Both the position numbers and the translations under genes were made by a program. Below the pieces are notes generated by a model that was given only the letters and a program-made list of their open reading frames with translations, searched no databases and was not told the origin of the DNA. 64,000 bases of DNA from Picochlorum sp. 'celeri'. Lineage: Eukaryota > Chlorophyta > Trebouxiophyceae. The stretch spans positions 1,240,001 to 1,304,000 of the forward strand of contig JAACMV010000002.1 of NCBI GenBank assembly GCA_010909725.1, read 5' to 3'. Shown piece by piece: positions 1-12,929 of the stretch (position 1 is its first letter; each line of letters opens with the position of its first letter).

Positions 1-1421
1 AGGTACATCCTGCTCTAGGGCCAAAGTCTGGGCCTCTCTTCTCGGCAAGATTTCTTCGTGAACAATCTGATTCTTATAGTACTCGAGTGATTTCAAATGC
101 TCCAGCAGATGGTCAGGGGATAATTTCTCATTGCTGGTGCAAGGAGGGGTTTTCTTCAGCAGGAGCGGCGGAGCTGCAGAGTGTCTTTGTCCACCCACTG
201 AAAGAGCCCTGACTGTATCATTTTTGACGAAAGCAGATTTCTCGACCACTTCCTCCAAAGACATTGGAACTATACACGATTGGAGATCCGTTTCCCCCTT
301 TTCCATTGGTGGTACCCCAGAATACTCAAGACCAGAGATTGAGTATCTCCACGGGCTGTTCTTTCCCCTGCACTCCAGGATGAAATTTATCAATGACTTG
401 CGCAGGATCCAGCTCTGTCGCACCCTTTTCTTGCTGCATTTCATTCCTTTCGAGATCCTCGTCGCCAGGTCCACTTTGAACTGCTCTGGCACCTTTTCAG
501 ACCGTGCTTTCCATACGTCGCTAAACTCCAGTGTGGCATGCTCTCCACACTCCTCGCACAATGCCATGCGACATGTACCCGAACATCCCGCAGATCGATA
601 TATCGCAATAACACATGGACAAAGACGCGCAAGAATATCGATATGGCTCGAAACTAATTCCCTTTCCTCGTCATCTCTCAGCATGCCCTTGACAGTTTTC
701 CACTGACACCTGATTTTCCTTGCCATTAGAAACTCTATAATGCCCCAGACCACGTCAAACACCCTTTCTAATTCTTCAAATACTTTTGGAATATGTAAAA
801 CTGCCAATGCATCGTTGCCAACGGTGCATCGTGGGTGATTACCATCATTCAGTACTGTGCCCTCATCATCTTGGCATGGGGCTGTCACCATGTTTCTTCT
901 TCTTTTCGAATCCTTCACGGGCGAAGGATTCGGGCGCAATATGTACCCAGGTAGCATTGTATCCATTTCCTGAGATTCCCTGATCGGCAAGGGAGGCTCC
1001 ACATGTTCTGGCACCTCCTCTGGCAGCACCTTATCCTTGGCCTTTGTCCTTTTCCTCAAACAGGCCACCTGCGCAACATCACAGTAGCATGCTACCTTTT
1101 TCTTGTTTGCTTCATGCAAATGATGATATGTTCGTACCAAAAAACAACCCTCAGCTAAACCCAATTCGCAAAGCTCCCTATCGTTCTTCAAAACCTCTCC
1201 CTGCACCACAGTGGAAATAGTATGCCAGGCGGGCTACAATAAAAAGGCACCACGAGACTCGATCGTACATTGTACATAATTTTACACCCCTGAAATCTAG
1301 CATCGATATCTCTCAATTTCCTCCTCACATCCCGAACAGTTGATAGTGGGTACCCACCGCCCTGACTGAGTTCAAACCGTTGCCCTCCACACAGGGTCTT
1401 GACTTCAACAAACTCCACCAT
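1..1421 (-). CDS. Ubiquitin-like domain protein, 3' part cut by window edge
   Basis: Two exons read on the minus strand: 1421-1269 and 1200 to the left edge, with a 68-bp GT-AG intron (1201-1268) in phase 0. Across the junction the first ~75 residues form a ubiquitin-like fold: VEVKTLCGGQ, then KIMYNGEVLKNDRELCELG and a closing GCFLVR, as in RAD23-type UBL domains. The second exon stays open for 400 codons to the window edge. It carries a charged linker and a Cys/His cluster (RLCPC...CSGTC...CEECGEH) at about residues 240-275. I chose the Met at 1421 because it begins directly at the UBL; an in-frame Met at 1562 would add 47 residues. UBL proteins usually act as adaptors to the proteasome or ubiquitin ligases; the role here is unknown. 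The exon join and UBL are seen in sequence; function is inference. Confidence 0.6.
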
Positions 1422-2035
1422 TGTACCCAATGGTCTGTACCAGCATGAAAACTCACATGATTCTTTATTTTGCTGGTCGATGCCGTCAGACCTCTGCCCT
1501 TCGGACCCACACGATAGCTGTAACCAGATGCTCTGTTCATTCGGAGGGAGAATCCAATCCAACTCTGGTCACGTGCATGCATGCATGCAGATCATCGACA
1601 TCGGGCGACCAAAACACGCTCTCGCTGCATTTATTTAATCAATAATCCAATATATGTGATATGATGATGACGATGAGACACACGCGTGCCGACTGCAGGC
1701 TGACAGCAACTGTCCACCGGGCGGCCTCTGCTCGAACTGCGTCCAGAGCGATGATCGTGCCTTCTTCCTTACATGGATCTTCCATTACCAAGGTGCGTGA
1801 TTTGATACACACGGTTGCATGGCATTTAGGGTGTCTTGCAGCAGTGGCCATGCAACATTGAATCGGTTTAAACGTAGTCGTTGTACCTTGATATGCAGCC
1901 GTTTCAGGGGAAATCGACCATTTCGAAGACTTTTGTAGCCAGAACTACATCTCATATCTGTACGTTGTTCGATATAAGGCGTCTGTGCTCCGGACTATTT
2001 TTTTCTCTGCATGTGTCTCCTGACCATCACCGTCC
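1422..2035. other. Divergent intergenic region, possible 5' exon of PGDH
   Basis: This stretch lies between the divergent UBL and phosphoglycerate dehydrogenase genes, so both promoters probably sit here. On the plus strand 1661-1792 encodes 44 residues rich in Arg, Ala, Ser and Thr (RADCRLTATVHRAASARTAS), like an organelle transit peptide, and ends at AAG followed by GTGCGTG, the donor form used by other genes here. Splicing to the AG just inside the PGDH ORF would need one carried base, so the phases do not fit simply. I therefore leave it as a possible 5' exon only. Confidence 0.3.
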
Positions 2036-3700
2036 ATGACTGCAGGCGCGGCAGCGGATGCCGACAGTACTCCCCCAACGATCCTTGTTGCAGAGAAGCT
2101 TGGTCAGGGGGGTGTTGATATGTTGAAGACTGCTGGTGAGGTTGACTGTAGTTACGATCTCTCACGGGATGAGCTCCTGGAGAAGATCAAAAGTGTGGAT
2201 GCCATTGTCATTCGCTCGGGAACAAAAGTTGATCGCGAGGTATTTGAAGCGTCGGGAGGGAGGCTCAAGGTGGTTGGCAGGGCCGGGGTTGGTATTGATA
2301 ATGTAGATCTGGCTGCAGCCAGCGAGACTGGATGCCTTGTGGTAAATGCTCCTACAGCAAACACCGTGGCCGCTGCTGAGCACGGAATTGCTCTTCTCTG
2401 CGCCCTCGCTAGGAATGTGGCACAGGCAGACGTGTCCATGAAGGCTGGAAGATGGGATCGCTCCAAATATGTCGGTGTCTCCATGGTTGGCAAGACGTTG
2501 GCCATTATGGGATTCGGAAAAGTTGGCGGAGAGGTTGCCAGAAGAGCCAAGGGATTGGGAATGAACGTGATTGCTCATGATCCATATGCTTCCGAAGAGC
2601 GGGCCATGGCTATCGGTGTGAAGCTTGTGTCCTTTGACGAGGCACTGTCAGCAGGAGATTTCTTCTCCTTGCACATGCCACTCACCCCCGACACCAAGGG
2701 ATTGTTCGGGGACGATGCCTTTGCCAAGATCAAGAAAGGTGCTCGTATCATTAATGTGGCACGTGGAGGAGTGATCGATGACGATGCTCTGGCAAGGGCT
2801 CTGGATGCTGGTATAGTTGCCGGTGCTGCTCTGGACGTTTTTGAGCAAGAGCCACCCCCAGCTGATCATCCATTGGTAGGTCGCCCTGATGTGATTTGCA
2901 CCCCACATTTGGGAGCTTCTACAAGAGAAGCGCAGGAAGAAGTCGCGTATGAGATTGCCGAGGCAGTGATGGGGGCATTGAAGGGTGAACTCACCAGCAG
3001 TGTAGTCAATGCCCCAATGGTGGCCCCTGAGGTTCTCAAGGAGCTCCAACCATTCGTTGCCCTTTCCACAGGTCTTGGAAGAGCAGCTGTTCAGCTTGTA
3101 TCAGACCATGGGTTCTCAGAAATTGAGATCACATATCACTCCAGCAGGGGAGGTGATCTGGACACAAGACTGCTGAGGGCCATGGTCGTGAAGGGCATCC
3201 TGGAGCAAATCACAGAGTCGCAGGTCAATATTGTAAATGCGGATCTTTTGGCCAAGAAGAGAGGTCTCAAGATTGTAGAAAAAGTTGTGCCTTCCGAATC
3301 TGGTGCAATCATCACAGAAATGGAGGTTGCCGTCTCGAGCAAGGACTCAAAGTTCTCCTCTGCAGTGGACCCAAATACGAATAAAATCACGGTGGGCGGA
3401 GAAGTGAAGCAGAATGGCATTCCTTTCCTCACCAAGATTGGCGCTTTTGACGTGGATGTCGCAATGCTCGGGGATGTTGCTTTGGTAAGGCAGACTGATC
3501 AGCCAGGAATCATTGCCGGCGTCTCCACCAGATTGGCAGAGTACCAGTTGAATGTGAACTACATGACTGTCTCAGTGGCAAGCAAGGGCCAGGAAGCCAT
3601 CATGGCAATCGGGTTGGATGCCAAACCAGGAAGTGATGTTTTGGATGCCATCTCCAAAGTTGAGGGAGTCAAGGAAGTCACATCCTTCAGCGAACAATGA
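2036..3700 (+). CDS. D-3-phosphoglycerate dehydrogenase
   Basis: 554 residues. The enzyme oxidises 3-phosphoglycerate to 3-phosphohydroxypyruvate with NAD+, the first step of the phosphorylated serine pathway, which is plastidial in plants. The substrate-binding domain starts at PTILVAEKLG. The Rossmann motif GFGKVG is at 159-164. Catalytic residues are Arg243 (NVARGG), Glu272 (DVFEQEP) and His291 (CTPHLGAST). An intervening allosteric domain follows, then a C-terminal ACT domain (about 480-554, RQTDQPGIIAGV), which makes this the long type I form. Translation from the first ATG gives only a short Ala/Asp-rich leader, so any transit peptide would need an upstream exon (see 1661-1792). A TGTAA motif lies about 50 nt past the stop. 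Confidence 0.95.
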   Translation: MTAGAAADADSTPPTILVAEKLGQGGVDMLKTAGEVDCSYDLSRDELLEKIKSVDAIVIRSGTKVDREVFEASGGRLKVVGRAGVGIDNVDLAAASETGCLVVNAPTANTVAAAEHGIALLCALARNVAQADVSMKAGRWDRSKYVGVSMVGKTLAIMGFGKVGGEVARRAKGLGMNVIAHDPYASEERAMAIGVKLVSFDEALSAGDFFSLHMPLTPDTKGLFGDDAFAKIKKGARIINVARGGVIDDDALARALDAGIVAGAALDVFEQEPPPADHPLVGRPDVICTPHLGASTREAQEEVAYEIAEAVMGALKGELTSSVVNAPMVAPEVLKELQPFVALSTGLGRAAVQLVSDHGFSEIEITYHSSRGGDLDTRLLRAMVVKGILEQITESQVNIVNADLLAKKRGLKIVEKVVPSESGAIITEMEVAVSSKDSKFSSAVDPNTNKITVGGEVKQNGIPFLTKIGAFDVDVAMLGDVALVRQTDQPGIIAGVSTRLAEYQLNVNYMTVSVASKGQEAIMAIGLDAKPGSDVLDAISKVEGVKEVTSFSEQ

Positions 3701-4275
3701 TCGACCCTTTTGCATGGAAAATAACGTCTTATTTTTCTATGGTGTTATGTAATGTATAAATGATCAGACTCGGGTCGGCAAGCAAGCCAGACAGCGCTGC
3801 TCGAGTGCAACGGCAGCGTGTGCTCAACCCACACGCTACGAGGCGCATTCTTCACGGAAAATCTCCACTATATAGATATTTTCAGGGTTTTAGACATCAT
3901 TCGAGGCCTTTGAAAAGCACAGAGAGGGCTGTCGCTGATGGAAATGACGAATCTAGCGAGGACTTTAGGTTTCGGAGGAACTTCGACTGGACCAGGTGTC
4001 TCAGCCTTGCTGGATGCTCTTTCGAGGCGTATAATGATTTGGATGAAGATTCGGAGCACCTGTCCCGGTTGACGACGAATGGAACCGAAACAAGCGCTAC
4101 CTCATGATCAGGAAGCCGCTGATCATCTCGAGGCACGGGTCAGACTGACTCGGTGCCCAAACCGGACACTCTCCAAAGAGCCCGTGGCAGTTGAGACAAG
4201 TCACAAACCAAAGTCAATGTATTCTCTCGCCCACATAATAAAAGCGTGATATTTATATCAAAGTTATGTAGCAAA
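3701..4275. other. Intergenic stretch without a supported gene
   Basis: This stretch starts with the PGDH 3' flank (TGTAA at 3748-3752). A 115-codon frame at 3760-4107 and a 42-codon frame starting near 3945 are open on the plus strand. Neither resembles a family I know, and they overlap each other, so I call no gene. AT content rises just before the AT-hook ORF at 4276. Confidence 0.4.
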
Positions 4276-4668
4276 ATGGAAAACAGACAGCAAATATCCA
4301 ACGGTGCCTGTGTTTCGGGAGATGTACAGATGATCACACCGAATAACACGGTTCCGCAAAAGCGCGGTAGAGGGCGACCTAGGAAGAATCCAGTCGCAAA
4401 TACGACTGTAAATAGTACGAATACGAATAATATACAGGGCGGCAGTGTGCCTTTTGGCTCTGATTCGAGTCTCGTCCATGAGCCTGGCAACCAACTGAAC
4501 CGAACGGTTGGATCTCGTTTGAATCCAAATTTGAATTCAAATCCAGCTCCAACCCCATATCATACGCCCATGCAACACAATGCTAGATATGATATTTCGT
4601 CAGAAATGCCTTTCGATGAAATAAGAGATGATGTTTCTGGCTATGAGTGTGTCCAGGACTATGGATGA
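4276..4668 (+). CDS. AT-hook protein fragment, interrupted
   Basis: About 130 residues, polar and Asn/Thr/Pro-rich, with a canonical AT-hook KRGRGRPRKNP near residue 35 that would bind the minor groove of AT-rich DNA. The frame ends in a stop at 4666-4668, exactly where sequence copied from the neighbouring nuclease gene begins in another frame. On the far side of that copied block, at 5148-5273, a 41-codon frame of similarly acidic character starts (MDLPQDFDALDFGD). This suggests that an original gene was split by an insertion of about 0.5 kb. An in-frame ATG also occurs 30 bases upstream of 4276. There is no recognised family beyond the AT-hook. Confidence 0.4.
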   Translation: MENRQQISNGACVSGDVQMITPNNTVPQKRGRGRPRKNPVANTTVNSTNTNNIQGGSVPFGSDSSLVHEPGNQLNRTVGSRLNPNLNSNPAPTPYHTPMQHNARYDISSEMPFDEIRDDVSGYECVQDYG

Positions 4669-5170
4669 AGAGCAGGACAAGGAGCCTCCCTTGGATAGTG
4701 GCGAACAACAGAGAAAGAAAAAACCACAGAAAAGGAAGCCACCTGCCAAGATAAAGGTTACCAAGCAGCCTTTGAAAGCCAGGACTGTGCAGAGTAAGAG
4801 GGTTCGGAATGTCAGACGTAGCCGGAATGGTAAGCGGGCGTCTACAGCTGCTGTAGATGCACACAGGTCTGGTACAAATGGGCCAAACGCAGCAGTGCAA
4901 AAGGTGCGTTTGATTGCTTGTGATGATTCTTGCAAATTGTCTATAGCACGTATAGGACAGCTAATCAATCAAATTTGTGATGTGCAGTGTGGCCAGATGC
5001 CAAAGTGCACAAAGTGCAAGAAGAATCAAGCACGGATAGGAGGTCTTTGTAGGAAATGCAAGTATGGAAAGTGCAAAGAGTGCGAGAAGAATCTAGCACA
5101 GACAGCAGATGGTCTTTGTTACCAGTGCAAGTATGGAAAGTGCACATATGGATTTGCCACAAGATTTTGA
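4628..5170 (+). pseudogene. Partial copy of the Cys-repeat nuclease gene
   Basis: Near-identical to 7228-7600 of the intact gene downstream. It has the same basic segment (QKRKPPAKIKVTKQPLKART), the same phase-0 intron (here 84 bp, 4904-4987, donor AAG/GTGCGT, acceptor GTGCAG) and the same Cys-repeat start (CTKCKKN, CKECEKN). It breaks off inside the third repeat, after KCTYGFATRF, and lacks the nuclease domain altogether. Because the intron is retained, the duplication happened at DNA level, not through mRNA. The block is bounded by TATGGAT at both ends (about 4661 and 5147), possible microhomology. It probably encodes no functional nuclease. Confidence 0.65.
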
Positions 5171-5273
5171 TGCTCTAGATTTTGGGGATGCATCACATTT
5201 CAGAACCGATGAAACAGGGCTGTATAGATTCGATACTACAGATCTGAACCTCCAGAAGTCCCAAGATCCCTGA
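5148..5273 (+). CDS. 41-codon ORF, possible C-terminal piece of split AT-hook gene
   Basis: An acidic open frame beginning MDLPQDFDALDFGDASHF, immediately after the copied nuclease block. It lies in a different frame from the end of the AT-hook ORF at 4668. It could be the displaced 3' part of that gene; alternatively it is chance. No family is recognised. Confidence 0.25.
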   Translation: MDLPQDFDALDFGDASHFRTDETGLYRFDTTDLNLQKSQDP

Positions 5274-5454
5274 GAGAGAGAAAACCCATCATGGTCATGA
5301 TGGATCTTGAACTGATGGTAGTGATAATCATCATCCGAGTGAGAAATCTCATGCATTCTTGTCTTTTCCCACGATCCCTTGCTATTCCATTCAATTCTGT
5401 AAAGAATAAAATACAAACTTAACGGGAAGAGCGGGGAAAAGCATCAGAATTCGC

Positions 5455-5528
5455 GGGCTTTCTGACACTCTGTTCTGCAGCGAGGAGAGATGTCACATCT
5501 GTCGTCAGCAACGAGTGTCAGAAAGCCC
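5455..5528. repeat. 15-bp perfect inverted repeat (hairpin)
   Basis: GGGCTTTCTGACACT at 5455-5469 pairs perfectly with AGTGTCAGAAAGCCC at 5514-5528 across a 44-base loop. It could be a transcript 3' hairpin or the ends of a tiny foldback element; no function is assigned. Confidence 0.7.
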
Positions 5529-5905
5529 CATATGAGCTCGAATCTTCACTATGAGATGCATGTGTTGATATGATATCAAAACTGACTCGATCGTTCTCGG
5601 CCAAGAGGGTAGGCTGCGTGACATTCACGTCGATGTCATGGTCGCAACGAGTCTTCTTCTGTATGTCATGGTTTGCAGCATTGTGGACCATGTTTATGAA
5701 CTTGGAGACATTGTTATGACCGGAAACATGCGTATCATGGACTCGGAAAGGCTTTCCGCGTCTCTCAGCGGTGGCTGGTTACGATGTGCACGTCGATAAC
5801 GACCCTGTGAGATGAAAGTGGATGCCTTTGGCACTGCCACCGTACACAGAAGAATTGAACATGTATTTTATTATCAACAAAGACGTGCCGAATAGTTATG
5901 GGCCA

Positions 5906-6271
5906 TTAAGGGGCCTCAAGATGTGAAGAGACGATGAAAGACGCTCTTCTTCTTCTCATCGCTTCGGATCTGCTCCCCTGGATCCAGATAAGCACGGTAT
6001 GTTTCTGTATCCTGTCGTGTTCCTCTTTCTTCTGGCTATCATTTCTAGTACGATTCTGTGCAGATGGGGCCGTTTGCGACATGGCTGCTGAATGGGAGTA
6101 ATTTGCCAGCAAGGCATGTCTCTTGTCCACCCTGATAGAAGTATGGTTTTGGACCCCACAGACTCTTCTTGACTTGCTTAGTACTTTGAAAGTTAGATCA
6201 TCGTACTCATCATTATAGGACAGTGGGTATTTTTTTTCTACTCGAGAGACCTCTGAGAGGTACTCATTCAT
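5906..6271 (-). CDS. Hypothetical 121-residue ORF
   Basis: Minus-strand frame beginning MNEYLSEVSRVEKKYPLSYN, with a charged Arg/Lys-rich second half (QKKEEHDRIQK, RSEAMRRRR). The amino-acid mix is compatible with coding, but there is no recognisable domain, no splice partner and no homologue I can name. It may be a remnant or a chance frame. Confidence 0.2.
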   Translation of the reverse strand: MNEYLSEVSRVEKKYPLSYNDEYDDLTFKVLSKSRRVCGVQNHTSIRVDKRHALLANYSHSAAMSQTAPSAQNRTRNDSQKKEEHDRIQKHTVLIWIQGSRSEAMRRRRASFIVSSHLEAP

Positions 6272-6334
6272 TTCTCAAGAATCATGTGTCAGCTGAGTGA
6301 GGAAGACATGTACTTTTTTATAAAAACTACATAC

Positions 6335-6356
6335 AGAGAGAGAGAGAGAGAGAGAG
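6335..6356. repeat. (GA)n microsatellite
   Basis: Eleven uninterrupted AG dinucleotides in the spacer before the nuclease gene. Confidence 0.85.
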
Positions 6357-6595
6357 CCCGAACCGAACGAGTGGATGCAATGTATATAACTCGAGTCTAG
6401 ATACTCAGAGGTATTTGTTTTGGGTGAAGGAAGGGGTGCGGAGGCTGGAAGATGTCCCATCCATGCTTGTTCATGTGTTGCATGAAAGGGTCATCGAGGA
6501 GGGGCGCCCTTCATGCAATAATGTCCGATGGCATCCTCGCCCATGGTATAGCATCACCGTTTCTCAATCCTGGCCATTTTTTATTTACATGGCAA

Positions 6596-6625
6596 ATATT
6601 AATACTCTTTTATGAGTATTAATAT
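6596..6625. repeat. AT-rich palindrome, 12-bp stem with 6-nt loop
   Basis: ATATTAATACTC, loop TTTTAT, then GAGTATTAATAT: a perfect stem 170 bp upstream of the nuclease gene start. It could be regulatory or a cruciform-forming site; position is the only support. Confidence 0.6.
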
Positions 6626-6794
6626 AATATTACACAGCGTTATCGGTATCTATACAGCGGAGAGTCGGGTACGCAGCAGGTGTTTGTCTGTGTCGCGCGG
6701 AACTTCCCGCGCGGCATCTGCAGAGTATTTTGATTTGATTTAATCATATAAATGATATTTATAATATATAGGGTAGATTGAAGGCTTTGAGGAG

Positions 6795-8646
6795 ATGGGG
6801 AGGCCCAGCAAGAAGAAGAAGGAGGAGACAGCTTCTGCCCTTGGCTGTAAGGACATTAGAGACTTCTTCACGCGCCGCGGGGTCGCTCCCAATGCTCAAA
6901 CATCTACCATGGAGGCAGAGCCAGGTGTAGTGGAAAGCGATGGGTCACCAGTTGGCACTGTGCCAACGACACAAGATGCCATGCTTGAGGATGTCACCGA
7001 TATGGATGTAGACACGGTGCCCATCACCACTCCAGAGGAGCAAGGTATGTTGTTGTATGATGTATGTTTTCGGTACATACATTGAGATGTGTATCTCTCT
7101 TCGCACGTTCATTCACATACTACTGATGCTGTTGTAGATGTAGTCGGCTCTGATTTGGCATCTGGTAGTGAGGATATTCACCCAAGCAGTACAGCATCAG
7201 CACAGCGACAGGAGAGTTCATCATCTCAGCAAACACAGAAAAGGAAGCCACCTGCCAAGCTAAAGGTTACCAAGCAGCCTTTGAAAGCCAGGACTGTGCA
7301 GAGTAAGAGGGTTCGGAATGTCAGGCGTAGCCGGAATGGTAAGCGGGCGTCTACAGATGCTGTAGATGCACACAGGTCTGGTACAAATGGGGCAAAAAAA
7401 GCAGTGCAAAAGGTGCGTTTGATTGCTCGTGATCATTCTTGCAAATGCTGCATTGTGTATAGCACGTATAGGACAGCTAATCAATCAAATTTGTGATGTG
7501 CAGACTGGCCAGAGGCCAAAGTGCACAAAGTGCAAGAAGAATGTATCAAATGGTACAGCAGATGGTCTTTGTAAGAAATGCAAGTATGGAAATTGCACAA
7601 AGTGCGAGAAGAATCTAGCACGGACAGAAGATGGTCTTTGTAATAGATGCAAGAAAGGAAAGTGCAAAATGTGCGAGAAGAATGTAGCACGGACAAAAGA
7701 TGGTCTTTGTAATGGATGCAAGAAAGGAAAGTGCAAAATGTGCGAGAAGAATCTAGCACAGACAGCAGATGGTCTTTGTAATGGATGCAAGACAGGAAAG
7801 TGCAAAGAGTGCGAGAAGAATCTAGCAGCGACAAAAGGTGGTCTGTGTAGATCATGCGATCCTGAATGGAAATGCACACAGTGTCGGAAGAATATATCTC
7901 TGACATTAGGTGGTCGGTGTCTTGGATGTTCCAATCCCAATGGTATACGCCTAGAAAAGAGGAAAGAGGAGTATTTTGCTGAGGAGCTACGAGAAAAATG
8001 CTTCGGTTCTCAAAAAGGGGTGCGCTACGATCGACAGATTGGAGATTCTGAGAGGAGACTAGATATAGGTATCGAATTCAAAAATTTTGGACACAATTTG
8101 GAGTGTGACGAAAATCAGCACCTCCATTACAAGCCTGAAGATGAGAAGAAGAGGGTTGAAGAAATTATAGTAGAGTACAAAAACAAAGGCAAGGAACAAA
8201 CCATCATATATCGCTTCAATACTGATGAGTACATTAACCTTGCTGGGGATCGCATCAAAGGAATGTTTGAGGAAAAGACGAGGCTGAATGAAGACGGGAT
8301 AGTCGTGAGGAGATATCTCGTAAAAAACGAGAGGGAATATAATCGTCGGATGAACCGTCTCATCGAGCTAGAAAACGAAGCCATCGCTCTGGGTAATGAA
8401 GAATCGCCAGAGAAGTTTGAATCTCGAGAAATTTTCTTATTCTACAATGGATACGATGATGCACATCACCGTAAGACAACTCTGTCGGAATACCTTAAAA
8501 TGCCACAGGTATACCCTCCCCACCGAGCAGTTGCTTACAAGGGTTATCAGGAGAAGAATAAGAACAAAAGAGAAAGTCCCTGGGATGAAAGATTCTTAAA
8601 AGCCAACTGTACAAGGCAAGGAAATGCAGAGCAAAAGGGAGAATAA
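6795..8646 (+). CDS. Cys-rich repeat protein with DENQH PD-(D/E)XK-like nuclease domain
   Basis: Three exons, 6795-7044, 7138-7412 and 7504-8646, give 555 residues; both introns (93 and 91 bp) are GT-AG with matching phases. The N-terminus is MGRPSKKKK (AT-hook-like), then CKDIRDFFTRR, which resembles a PCNA-binding PIP box with Cys in place of Gln. A basic stretch (about 105-170) precedes six Cys units of the form CxxCxKN...GLCxxC (about 182-315), probable zinc knuckles. The C-terminal domain has RRLDIGIEF (Asp362), LECDENQH (375-381) and YRFNTDEY (411-418). This is the pattern of a nuclease-like family I know from giant DNA viruses and algal genomes, where DENQH supplies the acidic metal site. 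It would act on DNA in the nucleus. A truncated copy sits 2 kb upstream. Cellular role unknown; nuclease activity is inferred. Confidence 0.75.
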
Positions 8647-8945
8647 GCAGTGGACACATCTCTTGATGGTCCATCATCCAGCTAGACAATGCTGGGGCAG
8701 AATGAAATCAGTTCTTGTCAATGTTCTGGATATTGATGAGATAAGGAATGATTTAGAGGAATGTGTATTGCAGTTTTTTCTTGTGTGTGTGGGCACTGAA
8801 AAGTGCAGGAAATACTGAAAGAGGGTATTGGGAGGAGCACCAAGCAAAGCAGAGAGCAGAAAGAATGTATGAGTATACGTAATGTTTGATCCATTATGAT
8901 AGTAGTAGTAGTAAAAATGAAACAGACATCATGATAAAAATAATA
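8647..8945. other. 3' flank of nuclease gene up to transposon
   Basis: No gene is evident. It holds a short AGT microsatellite (about 8901-8914) and ends at the TA dinucleotide (8944-8945) used as the target site of the pogo element. Confidence 0.5.
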
Positions 8946-8957
8946 CTGTACCGCCGC
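8946..8957 (+). repeat. Left terminal inverted repeat of pogo element
   Basis: CTGTACCGCCGC, preceded by TA; exact reverse complement of the right end. Confidence 0.85.
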
Positions 8958-9122
8958 TAACTCTTCGTGATTTCAGGATTTTCCCTCCTTTTCTTGTCCT
9001 GCAAAGTTTTCGAGTGCCAAAATTGGATTTCTCGACGATCTGAGGTGGAAACAGTGTGCAATAGATTACAATAGATGTAAATAAACCCCTTAGATGCTGT
9101 AGACGTCCAAAGACAGACGTGG

Positions 9123-11069
9123 TTATGATCGATTGCTTGATCTTGTTCCAGACCTCCTTCCCCTGGGATGATTGGATGGGTCATAGGCATGGTCTCCTTC
9201 TGATGGCTCTTCATTCTGGCTCTCATCGTCTGTATCATGTATAGAATACTCGATTTCATCCTCGCTTGTTGTAGCTTTGTCCTCAAGCACTTGGAGTGGT
9301 GCATCACAAGGCACAGCATCCGGGAAGACATTGACTCTGTTTGTCTCTGGGTCCATCGGGAAAAGAAGGCCATTCTCAAACAATCTCAGGGCTTCTTCTT
9401 GGACTTCAATATCCCAAGCATCTAATATAGTGCAATCGAGCCAAGCTTTCTGGACTAGACTTGTCTCGATCTGCTGCCATGCTTTATAGGTGCAATCAAT
9501 GGCATCCTCTCTTTTCACCTTGGGTTTTGTGCTCTTTTCGATCTGCACAATCTGTTCAGCCAGTCTATCGTCCTGTGCGCTCTTTGATATCAAATCTGCA
9601 ATCTTCTTGCCATATTCAAAGCTGTACACCGCTTTAGTTTTGGTCTTGAGAGCTGAATTGATAGACACGTCGAGAGGCTGAAGCTTGTGTGTCATGTTTG
9701 GAGGCAGGAATCTTAGCTTCACTTTCCCTTTAAATTTCTCTTCCACTGCGCTTTTAAACTCTGCGGTTGTATGCACTTTCCAGTTGTCTAGGAGAAGCAA
9801 AAGTTGATTGCATGTTGGCTCACCTTTGGCTCTTTTCTCTGCCCACCTTTTTTCAGCATGAGGCAAGATGACATGTTCTATTAAATCCAAGTTGCTATCT
9901 GGTGTCGACCAATGCGTGTCTGTCTGATTGTATATACATCCTGGGTATTTTTCTTTTAGGTTTCTGAAGTTTGTTTGACTGTCTGGAATTGACCTGAAGC
10001 ATTTCTTCATGGTCCTTTTATCAAACTCTGTACCCTGGAAAATGAACTGGAGTGGGAGCTTCGCACCAGATGCTGAGACAACAGGCACAAGAGTGAGCTG
10101 ATTTTTCTCTGGTTTCTGTTTCACAACAACATTCCTTGAACCTTTCTTCGCCCTTGTTCTTTTGGACCGAGCAGTGAGTGGACATCCTGTTTGGTCCATG
10201 TTGTAAACGTCTTCTTTTGAGTAGCCTCTTGTTTTGACTATGTATGCCATCTGATACTTGAATCTAACCATTTGCTCTTTCCAGTCATCCGGTTCTTTGT
10301 ATGTTTCTTGAGTTTTGCTTCTCATGGATAAGCCCAGTTGTCTGCATAAATCATTTACCCAAGTCCTGCTCACCTTGAAACTTCCATCATCTAGTTTGCC
10401 ACCCTCCCCATGTTTCCTGATCAGTGCCTGTATTTGAGGTATCAACGTAGTAGAATTCACTGTTTCAGACAAAACATGAGTGCTTAAGCCGGTTGAATTA
10501 TGCTCCTCTGGCAGCAAATCTTTAATATGCTGAACAATAGCCTCCCTTGTCTCAGGTTTCAGGACACACTGTCTCCCAGGCCTTCTGCCAACCTTCTCCT
10601 TTGCTTTAATCCAAGAGCGTACATTTGCTTCATTTAAGTTTCTATAGTATTTAGGAAATGCACCCCCATTGATCGATCCACGATGCTTAGCAAAATATTT
10701 GACAGTGGCTGCTACAGGATTTTTGGTTGCCTTGCCCTTGAAGTCCTGAAGCTTTTCAAGGATCACTTTCTTGTCGGTCAATGTCCACTTTATATATTGT
10801 TTCTTCTGAGAGACTTGTGCCTCATCAATATTCTGATCGATCGCAGCCAGTGCATCCTGTAAAGGATCTTGCACATTCAAATTTTCTACTTCCTGAGCCA
10901 AAGCTTCCGCGTCACTTCTCTTCTTCTTTGGCCGGCCTCTTTTCCTCGAGCAATCTAACACAATTTTACGTTTATTAGTATTATTCTTTGATGCATTGCG
11001 TAACATAGCAAGTGCCCTTTCGGCTGCAGTAGGAGCCGTTCGTTGTTGCTGTCGTTGTGAGTCAACCAT
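9123..11069 (-). CDS. pogo/Tigger-like DDE transposase
   Basis: 648 residues, uninterrupted. In order: an AT-hook-like RKRGRPKKKR (about 42-51), a helix-turn-helix region (about 95-250, with NVRSWIKAKEKVGRRPGRQ), and the DDE_1 catalytic core. The three acidic residues are Asp292 in YNMDQTG, Asp428 in LLLLDNWKVH and Asp467 in HKLQPLDVSI; the FLPPNMTHKLQPLD block is typical of pogo/CENP-B-related transposases. The acidic, Ser-rich tail ends in RGRRSGTRSSNRS. It would cut and paste the surrounding element by recognising its 12-bp ends. It sits wholly within the inverted repeats, transcribed away from the lipase gene. Confidence 0.93.
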   Translation of the reverse strand: MVDSQRQQQRTAPTAAERALAMLRNASKNNTNKRKIVLDCSRKRGRPKKKRSDAEALAQEVENLNVQDPLQDALAAIDQNIDEAQVSQKKQYIKWTLTDKKVILEKLQDFKGKATKNPVAATVKYFAKHRGSINGGAFPKYYRNLNEANVRSWIKAKEKVGRRPGRQCVLKPETREAIVQHIKDLLPEEHNSTGLSTHVLSETVNSTTLIPQIQALIRKHGEGGKLDDGSFKVSRTWVNDLCRQLGLSMRSKTQETYKEPDDWKEQMVRFKYQMAYIVKTRGYSKEDVYNMDQTGCPLTARSKRTRAKKGSRNVVVKQKPEKNQLTLVPVVSASGAKLPLQFIFQGTEFDKRTMKKCFRSIPDSQTNFRNLKEKYPGCIYNQTDTHWSTPDSNLDLIEHVILPHAEKRWAEKRAKGEPTCNQLLLLLDNWKVHTTAEFKSAVEEKFKGKVKLRFLPPNMTHKLQPLDVSINSALKTKTKAVYSFEYGKKIADLISKSAQDDRLAEQIVQIEKSTKPKVKREDAIDCTYKAWQQIETSLVQKAWLDCTILDAWDIEVQEEALRLFENGLLFPMDPETNRVNVFPDAVPCDAPLQVLEDKATTSEDEIEYSIHDTDDESQNEEPSEGDHAYDPSNHPRGRRSGTRSSNRS

Positions 11070-11417
11070 CGCTATCTTTAGCCTTTTCTACACCGCTTGC
11101 GCTATTATTACATTTCAATGATCTCAATATTCATTTATAATAATCTTCAAGTGCGATTTGGATGAGACAATTGCGCAATCAAGGCTATGCGCCGATGTCA
11201 GAAATTCAAAATTCAAGTGATGCAGTTTCTCCTGCCATCTGGACGGTCTCAGCCAGTTTTGTGAGGAAGGAGCCGAGCGAGGGACCCCCGCTGCACATTT
11301 AAAGCTCCATTGGGCCATTACAGCACAACGAAGTGGAGCAAGACATCGTTCTGATCGCGATTCAGTGCCCCCCCGGTTATTTTCACTTATCCTTCAAAAT
11401 TTTCGTGGATTCGGCAT

Positions 11418-12845
11418 TTGAATTTCTTTTTGATTCGAAAATATTTGGCGGCGGTACAGTACACAATAAAGATTAATATCAGGACATTGGAATGTCGAAT
11501 TCTCGGATGGACCAAGAGTGATCCTTACATTGTTATATCTTGCGATGGAAGCGTGTACAAGACCTCGACCGTGTGGGGAAATTTGAACCCTTCATGGAAC
11601 GAGACTGCCTACTTTTACGTACATGATCTAGAGAGCACAAGGCTTCGATGCCGTGTTATTGATGATAATATAGTGACCGGGGACAATCTGATGGGTTCCG
11701 CGTTCGTACCTGTGAATGATCTGATGGACAACGAAGAGCACGAGGTCACACTTCCTCTGGTGGGCACATCAGGAGAAGTTCGTTTGAGCTTGAAGTATTC
11801 TTCATTTAAGGAGGGTGACTCGTTGGATCCCGGCCTTCTGGCGGAGATTGGGAAATCTACGTTGGTTGGGAATATTCCGAGAAACGTCACAGAGTCTGCA
11901 TGGAGGAAGATGATGACCACAATCATATTGGCCGAGGAGCTGGCTGACATTGAGTTTGACCCTGTGAGCTTCATTGAGAATAGAGACACTGATACTCAAG
12001 CCTGGATATTTTGGAACACGACGAACAAGCGCATTGTAGTTGCCTTTCGTGGGACTGAACAGACAGAATTTAAAGATCTGCTCACTGATGCCTCGTTGAT
12101 CCCATCTAGAATTGCCGCGGAGGATGGGAGATTGGCACCAAGCAATCAGTCGATGGATGAGCAGAGCGACCCATGGGTTCATTCCGGCTTTTTACGAGGC
12201 TATTTATCCGTTGCATCCGAAGTGAAGGAAATTGTGCAGCAGATTGTTGGTCAGGAACGCAACCGCTGGGAAATACTCTTCACTGGCCACAGCCTTGGTG
12301 GTGCCCTGACCACGCTATGCGCGTATGACATTGCGAAAATGGAAGAGAGCAAAGAAGATAAACTGTTCTCATCCATTGATGTTTACAATTATGGTTCGCC
12401 CATGGTAGGGGGAGAAGCTTTCACATCAGAGTTCAATGCGCTGTTGCCAAATTGCTGGAGAATTGTCAACGAAAATGATGCCGTTTGCAGGCTGCCCCGA
12501 TTTTTAGGATATGGCCATGTGGGAGGCAAAGTGACTCTGCATCGAGATGGCTCGGTTATCTTTATGGATTCGAACGAGAAAGAGGTGTCGGAGGATATCT
12601 CGGTAACCACTTTCATCAAGAAACTTGGTTACCAGTCCCTTTCTTCCTTTGCATCTCAGGGCAAGTACGTCGAGATACTACGCAACACCCTCGCGTCAGA
12701 TATTAGCAGGGACTTTGACGTGGATCAATGTATTCAGGAAGAGATCCAAAGCCTCGAGGCATTATTGGAAGGAAGCGCCATGGATGAGCACATGGAAGAT
12801 GAGTACTTTGCGGCATTAGAGAAAGCCATCCAAAGCAACCTCTGA
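11418..12845 (+). CDS. C2-domain class 3 lipase
   Basis: 475 residues. The N-terminal C2 domain (about 15-127; IRTLECRILGWTKSDPYIVI) likely binds membranes in a calcium-dependent way. The lipase_3 domain follows: VAFRGTEQTEFKDLLTD (208-224), nucleophile elbow GHSLGG with Ser292, Asp354 in NENDAVCRLP, and a probable catalytic His367 in GYGHVGG. It would hydrolyse acyl esters of glycerolipids. The first 14 codons are transposon sequence: the right inverted repeat ends at 11459. The original 5' end must therefore have been separated or replaced by the insertion, or the first exon lies beyond the element. There is no signal or transit peptide in the present frame. TGTAA lies 9 nt past the stop. 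Confidence 0.85.
   Translation: MNFFLIRKYLAAVQYTIKINIRTLECRILGWTKSDPYIVISCDGSVYKTSTVWGNLNPSWNETAYFYVHDLESTRLRCRVIDDNIVTGDNLMGSAFVPVNDLMDNEEHEVTLPLVGTSGEVRLSLKYSSFKEGDSLDPGLLAEIGKSTLVGNIPRNVTESAWRKMMTTIILAEELADIEFDPVSFIENRDTDTQAWIFWNTTNKRIVVAFRGTEQTEFKDLLTDASLIPSRIAAEDGRLAPSNQSMDEQSDPWVHSGFLRGYLSVASEVKEIVQQIVGQERNRWEILFTGHSLGGALTTLCAYDIAKMEESKEDKLFSSIDVYNYGSPMVGGEAFTSEFNALLPNCWRIVNENDAVCRLPRFLGYGHVGGKVTLHRDGSVIFMDSNEKEVSEDISVTTFIKKLGYQSLSSFASQGKYVEILRNTLASDISRDFDVDQCIQEEIQSLEALLEGSAMDEHMEDEYFAALEKAIQSNL
11448..11459 (-). repeat. Right terminal inverted repeat of pogo element
   Basis: GCGGCGGTACAG, followed by TA. It lies within codons 11-14 of the lipase reading frame as it stands. Confidence 0.85.
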
Positions 12846-12929
12846 AGACCACATGTAAATTGATATTTCATTCTCTGGTACATATATTGACGTCTGTCTG
12901 GTCGATGTGATTCTTCCTTTTCCAAATTC

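Follow-up and report, generated by a model that had tools for sequence, protein, structure and literature searches.

The window, i.e. the whole stretch of 64,000 nucleotides that was analysed (C2:1240001-1304000 in a genome of 27,412,692 bases on 30 contigs, which are denoted by C numbers), contains a hemizygous composite insertion, which consists of a DENQH module, an AT-hook gene fragment and a pogo/Tigger-like transposon and interrupts a lipase gene on one haplotype (Table 1). The module carries a spliced gene, whose product has a PIP-like motif in its head, followed by arrayed Cys4 units and a DENQH domain. Our tentative explanation, to which we assign somewhat less than an even chance, is that this represents a genus-restricted, modular nuclease-like gene that spreads in composite insertions, with docking, cleavage and spread through break repair as its conjectural elements.

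Table 1. Features of the insertion locus and of the DENQH gene (positions are those of the window).
Feature	Position	Strand	Basis or remark
Interrupted lipase frame, 5' part	3760..4090	+	comparison with empty allele
Hemizygous composite insertion, 7,417 bp, in place of 101 bp on the other haplotype (C22), within class-3 lipase frame	4091..11507	.	empty allele and Pfam
Piece ~90% identical to C23/C3 locus, order inverted	4120..4332	.	sequence comparison
DENQH module common to window and C1:157172-162030	4305..8947	+	93-95% identity
AT-hook (RGRPRK) gene fragment, matching a stretch of a C23/C3 ORF at 97% identity	4327..4718	+	sequence comparison
Partial second copy, with the basic linker and part of the Cys units	4722..5144	+	89% identical to 7231-7666
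5' region ~78% identical to 5' regions of genes on C2:999k, C22:981k, C8 and C17	5700..6839	+	sequence comparison
Exon 1	6795..7044	+	splice model
PIP-like motif CKDIRDFF, residues 18-25	6846..6869	+	read from translation
Exon 2 (acidic and basic linker)	7138..7412	+	splice model
Exon 3	7504..8646	+	splice model
Six Cys4 units (CxxC...CxxC), residues 182-317	7522..7929	+	read from translation
DENQH region, residues 325-555	7951..8643	+	translation and alignments; Asp362 codon 8062-8064, ECDENQH 8101-8121
pogo/Tigger-like transposon	8946..11459	-	DDE_1 transposase ORF 9123-11069, inverted arms, TA ends
48-bp tail, also at C24 and C7 (98%)	11460..11507	.	match extends 8 bases (TGGACCAA) into lipase
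Interrupted lipase frame, 3' part	11508..12845	+	empty allele and Pfam

According to its report, the phased diploid assembly of Picochlorum celeri comprises 27.43 Mbp in two sets of 15 scaffolds with 46% GC (PMC7225527). In our searches, the contig pairs C2/C22, C3/C23, C14/C18, C8/C17, C5/C20 and C4/C30 acted as haplotypes. On C22 an empty allele was found, in which the 101 bp lie within an intact 589-aa frame encoding C2 and class-3 lipase domains (Pfam). Since this frame is intact with 101 bp at the place where the window has the 7,417 bp, one lipase allele is interrupted. The left flank (window 1-4090) differs from C22 by 9 mismatches and 1 gap in 4,090 columns, the right flank (window 11508-12906) by 4 mismatches in 1,399. 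The empty allele dates the latest step of spread.

The insertion is a mosaic with short shared sequence at some of its junctions. At the right junction the match of the 48-bp tail overlaps the lipase sequence by eight bases, and at the left junction neither microhomology nor overlap was found. The target site lost 101 bp and shows no duplication. Presence of the module on C1 as well, together with its hemizygous state in the window, bears out the view of the initial annotation that the gene has spread within this genome. The C1 module adjoins a copy of the C5/C20 amino-acid transporter locus, the aligned ends overlapping by 12 bp, and this transporter-locus copy is itself interrupted by a dispersed repeat. 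The repeat measures ~2.6 kb and occurs in tandem on several contigs (C14:667-676k, C29, C13, C21 and the end of C1); where it is inserted in the transporter-locus copy, the flanks overlap by 5 bp. The second partial copy that had been noticed close to the gene is real as well and ends near 5170; its interpretation as a separate gene was dropped after sequence comparisons of the locus. The AT-hook of the fragment at 4327-4718 was called by eye, and Pfam gave no match for the corresponding ORF on C23 and C3.

The neighbouring element at 8946-11459, which we take to be of the pogo/Tigger type, has the marks of a transposon, i.e. a DDE_1 transposase (Pfam, E 7.8e-14), short inverted arms (22 nt, 8944-8965 and 11440-11461, 86% complementary) and TA ends, and its end region recurs on other contigs. 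The DENQH module does not qualify as a TIR transposon, having neither terminal inverted repeats nor a target-site duplication: in a search of 3950-11650 the sole pair of inverted arms was that of the Tigger-like element, and the module's own ends had none. The idea that the whole 7.4 kb is a single transposon was rejected, because the DENQH module on C1 is not accompanied by the Tigger-like element.

The patchwork of unrelated pieces, the 101-bp target loss and the short overlaps at some junctions are as would be expected from end-joining or template switching, and there is a substantial, if less than even, chance that the gene was carried along as a passenger of host break repair or segmental duplication and that its protein, nuclease or not, has no part in the movement. 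It suits this explanation that non-nuclease pieces were copied too, namely the AT-hook fragment, the transporter locus and, next to an HNH-like gene, parts of C22:769k and C22:1067k, and that no sign of purifying selection was seen between the C2 and C1 copies, whose DENQH regions differ by six changes in 693 bp, five of them altering the protein, a number that gives no power for dN/dS. A passenger role may be less easily reconciled with the sharing of heads or 5' regions, repeated in the genome, among several nuclease-like families (see below).

The DENQH gene extends from the ATG at 6795 to the last base of the stop codon at 8646, and GT-AG splicing of its three exons yields one open frame of 555 aa. 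Both exon joins are spanned by P0001, a 634-aa protein of Picochlorum sp. BPE23 that is 97% identical across 99% of the region searched and serves as an outside check on the splice model; the nuclear gene originally proposed here is confirmed, as a spliced gene, by its intact frame and by this orthologue. The protein consists of the head MGRPSKKKK, CKDIRDFF, an acidic linker, a basic linker (from residue 118), the Cys4 units and the DENQH region. A Pfam scan of the whole protein returned nothing near threshold and no reverse transcriptase or DDE domain. The six Cys units described previously were recovered, and their number varies among the three full mobile-type copies: the window gene has 6, P0001 has 8 and the C1 copy has 9. 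As RRLDIGIEF begins at residue 359 and ECDENQH at residue 375, the numbering of Asp362 and Glu375 also proved correct. The AT-hook that had been ascribed to the gene stands only as a GRP core: an AT-hook core is defined as R-G-R-P, the head has M-G-R-P instead, and the fuller RGRPRK sits in the neighbouring fragment.

The PIP-like box was retained in part, i.e. CKDIRDFF is present at residue 18, but the canonical Gln is absent. Compared with the consensus Q-x-x-[ILM]-x-x-F-[FY], as given in PMC5481773, Ile21, Phe24 and Phe25 are present and Cys18 stands in place of Gln; judged by its residues, the motif could only be, at most, a non-canonical PIP box. Among the 19 ORFs of the window with 251 aa or more, [ILM]xxF[FYL] occurs within the first 60 residues of none and [ILM]xx[FY][FY] within those of one; not all of these ORFs need be genes, and the patterns were picked post hoc. 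The hydrophobic core is retained in the window gene, the C1 copy, P0001 and one HNH-like copy on C3. Among proteins of mobile elements, LINE-1 ORF2p and the pogo transposase are said to bind PCNA via PIP boxes; the window protein differs from these by having no reverse transcriptase or DDE domain. A parallel to its putative layout is provided by ZRANB3, a PCNA-recruited nuclease, in which a PCNA docking motif is joined to a nuclease domain (PMC5481773). ZRANB3 differs in having an SNF2 ATPase, a canonical PIP box plus APIM and an HNH nuclease and in not being mobile, and PCNA binding has been shown there, whereas for the window protein it would be an assumption. The Fanzor-bearing elements of Auxenochlorella, described in PMC12636532, are likewise endonuclease-encoding repeats with haplotype-polymorphic insertions in a diploid trebouxiophyte, but no such family was listed in the Pfam scan of the window protein.

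Within its own genome, the DENQH domain was found in the window, on C1 (98% over 231 aa) and in a divergent resident gene at C4:261166 (E 0.0245), the only place of the resident type according to the searches run. Profile comparison of the C4 resident type with the window type gave E 2.4e-6. The domains of the two types are 28-31% identical and share E-x-D-E-x-Q-H, followed by Y, E, R and R-x-N-x-D, and the resident gene resembles the window gene also in an N-terminal PIP-like stretch, NNRLITFYF. It differs in carrying a Myb domain and EsV-1-7 motifs (PF19114 match 4.6e-10) instead of the Cys4 array. Counterparts of the resident gene are present in SENEW3 (96%) and BPE23 (88%) and as a JGI Picre1 protein (86%), Picre1 presumably being P. 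renovo. Protein searches yielded relatives in 1 of 239, 3 of 1,022 and 1 of 3,310 candidates, the last being the metagenome protein P0005; since these searches rely on short exact shared words, distant relatives can be missed. Eight sequences are available in all, with C2, C1, P0001 and P0005 forming the window-type group, and C4, P0002, P0003 and P0004 the other. On these searches the family is genus-restricted, its members here coming only from Picochlorum and from one metagenome protein. It is not described in any title or abstract start of the literature covered, a scope in which subscription papers and preprints mostly do not fall.

Glu375, Asp377, Glu378, Gln380 and His381 are invariant in our alignments A1-A4. 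The position of Asp362 is alignment-dependent: an Asp of the resident type stands opposite it in A1, A2 and the DUF559 control alignment, though not in A3 or A4. The initial annotation had proposed a restriction-like nuclease of the PD-(D/E)XK type, against which an absence of the acidic residues in homologues would have counted; since Glu375, Asp377 and Glu378 are kept in A1-A4, this did not occur. Set beside the DUF559 consensus, the DENQH domain resembles the MTES_1575/DUF559 group, which belongs to the Vsr branch of PD-(D/E)XK, in having Asp and then E-x-D-x-x-x-H at similar spacing. However, DUF559 has Gly after E-x-D, where the DENQH domain has Glu, and the similarity did not rise above noise in controls. 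Nine DUF559 proteins display Asp, then E-x-D-G and usually His with a spacing like that of the DENQH domain. When the combined DENQH alignment was compared with these nine by hhalign, the motifs were superposed, with 8 of 300 column shuffles scoring as high and the reversed profile reaching 15.67 versus 17.26 for the true profile. In the hmmsearch control, eight real sequences appeared at rank 135 or lower among 1,120 listed and not above shuffles, and profile comparison of the window type alone with DUF559 left the motif unaligned. MTES_1575 gave a second weak hint at this same position, matching two of four DENQH members at E 0.055-0.059, below its cut-off; genome-wide it matched six places, none of them at DENQH loci, and the DUF559 profile matched none.

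For the DENQH domain, the best NCBIfam match (E 0.015) lies far below the cut-off, and PHROGs and PADLOC returned nothing at E <= 1; the best match by sequence among solved structures (E 0.18) is a lectin domain. Two AlphaFold models reached mean pLDDT values of 33 and 46, and Foldseek returned no match at E <= 0.001 for either of them. The first model contains a helix, a strand with Asp362, a loop with Glu375, a helix and a strand, an order that would suit a restriction-like core; because of its pLDDT of 33, we do not treat it as evidence. Of the proposed nuclease site, Glu375 and Asp377 are invariant and Asp362 depends on the alignment; for the fold, the likeness to MTES_1575/DUF559 remains near noise and model confidence is low. 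We put the chances that the DENQH domain is a nuclease at about even and regard its PD-(D/E)XK assignment as possible.

A regulatory DNA-binding protein, in which a non-catalytic DENQH domain has a structural or protein-binding role and the Cys array and basic linker belong to a chromatin or transcription factor, appears unlikely. It would agree with the Myb domain and EsV-1-7 motifs of the resident relative and with a nuclease fold unproven at these pLDDT values; the most conserved stretch, E-x-D-E-x-Q-H, is acidic with His and Gln, which would be unusual for a plain DNA-binding surface. Conservation of the motif residues across two types with so little identity may be taken to favour the modular nuclease-like gene, and the mere E 0.0245 of the resident type in the genome search to speak against it. 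In this favoured explanation, the head with its PIP-like motif and basic tracts would dock on PCNA, while the Cys array and basic linker would hold DNA. The DENQH domain would act as a nuclease, metal-dependent and divergent within the Vsr/DUF559 branch (Asp362, Glu375, Asp377, His381), that nicks or cuts DNA; in repairing the breaks, the host would insert copies of the module along with further pieces of the genome, whereby the gene would spread. If this is true, small modules that couple docking at the replication machinery to DNA cutting are remodelling a compact, repeat-poor algal genome, and their insertions take the form of patchworks rather than clean transposon footprints; templated-insertion repair could then be tested in a fast-growing alga whose diploid genome is phased. 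Should the nuclease part not hold, the finding would come down to an orphan family confined to the genus and to the interruption of a lipase gene on one haplotype of a strain used in biotechnology.

The suggestions that DENQH-type domains recur in giant viruses and that the gene is of viral descent found no support: five viral scans with the domain, and for descent also one with an HNH-like protein, brought no relative. Viral-contig scans with the DENQH domain gave 8, 28 and 98 candidate stretches, none of which was confirmed, and viral motif scans gave 5 and 2 hits, all of which look like chance when read individually. None of 117 stretches was confirmed for the HNH-like protein against viral contigs. 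In GTDB genomes, none of 69 pattern stretches was confirmed; in phages there was no match at E <= 1, and a plasmid scan revealed no relative. That the gene is an heirloom of a large DNA virus is therefore very improbable, given these viral and phage results and the lack of an EsV-1-7 (PF19114) match of the window protein at E <= 10, even though the EsV-1-7 motifs carried by the resident relative occur in several viral genomes (PMC7457493).

Similar heads are found on other genes. In those at C2:999k/C22:981k and C8/C17, exon 1 starts with M-E-x-P-x-KKKKKEAASAK and exon 2 brings PGQQTLNSFLQRTG. Exon 1 of the window gene and the start of its exon 2 recur before a 1020-aa frame at C14, C18, C22 and C3, with C14 missing part of exon 1. 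HNH_3 scores of the C8 protein (20.7 bits) and the C14 protein (19.2) are both below the cut-off of 24.8, and Pfam returned nothing at E <= 1 for a 757-aa frame at C2:1000k. Similar heads thus precede different, partly nuclease-like bodies. At the 1020-aa loci the PIP-like core is kept on C3; it is degraded on C18 and C22, and on C14 the stretch was not found by search. The 1020-aa HNH-like frame lies in a ~7-kb repeated element (C14:283k, C22:498k, C18:270k, C3:890k), and the C14:283k stretch has inverted arms at 1794-2452 and 8604-8960 (stretch numbering; pieces of 29-125 nt, 78-99%). Copies of this element on C22 and C3 have no listed counterpart on C2 or C23, so they may be hemizygous. Beside the HNH-like element, at ~C22:502-504k, there are 97-98% copies of C22:769k/C2:788k and C22:1067k/C2:1085k.

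Loci with a nuclease-like body or a related head number 16, C19:1123357 having been removed from the nuclease-like loci for its weak match (E 8.2e-4, 29%). At six of the 16 (C4:261k, C23:263k, C27:743k, C4:812k, C2:1000k, C22:981k), a partner gene matches at E <= 6e-6 within ~6 kb. At each of the four 1020-aa loci an ORF occupies the partner position, with E only 0.018 at C14 and the other three absent from the partner list; no partner is listed for the remaining six (window, C1, C8, C17, and C3 and C23 near 7 kb). On C30 there is a partner beyond which 5 kb were read without revealing a nuclease-like gene. Since the partner occurs at only part of the loci and is absent at the window, pairing is frequent but no rule. 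It seems quite unlikely that these genes make up an undescribed selfish class in Picochlorum, in which a PCNA-docking head with exchangeable DENQH or HNH-like nuclease bodies, at some loci beside a fast-diverging partner, would break DNA at replication and be copied into the break with genomic scraps.

The partner family is multi-copy and highly divergent, with 28 places at E <= 1 that are 24-86% identical, excluding the query. Four members scanned had no significant Pfam match. Members lie on C4, C10, C16, C22, C23, C27, C30, C3, C5/C20 and C11/C19. C4:256500-266400 and C30:263600-267000/269400-274400 look like a pair of haplotypes: along the biotin-gene flank they are 96.7% identical (2,629 columns), after which the two sides diverge. 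The C4 side holds the DENQH gene and a partner gene, and the C30 side an inverted partner that is only 57% identical and is followed by frames that, judged by eye, resemble zinc-finger, ankyrin and NUDIX proteins. This divergent pair resembles an idiomorph.
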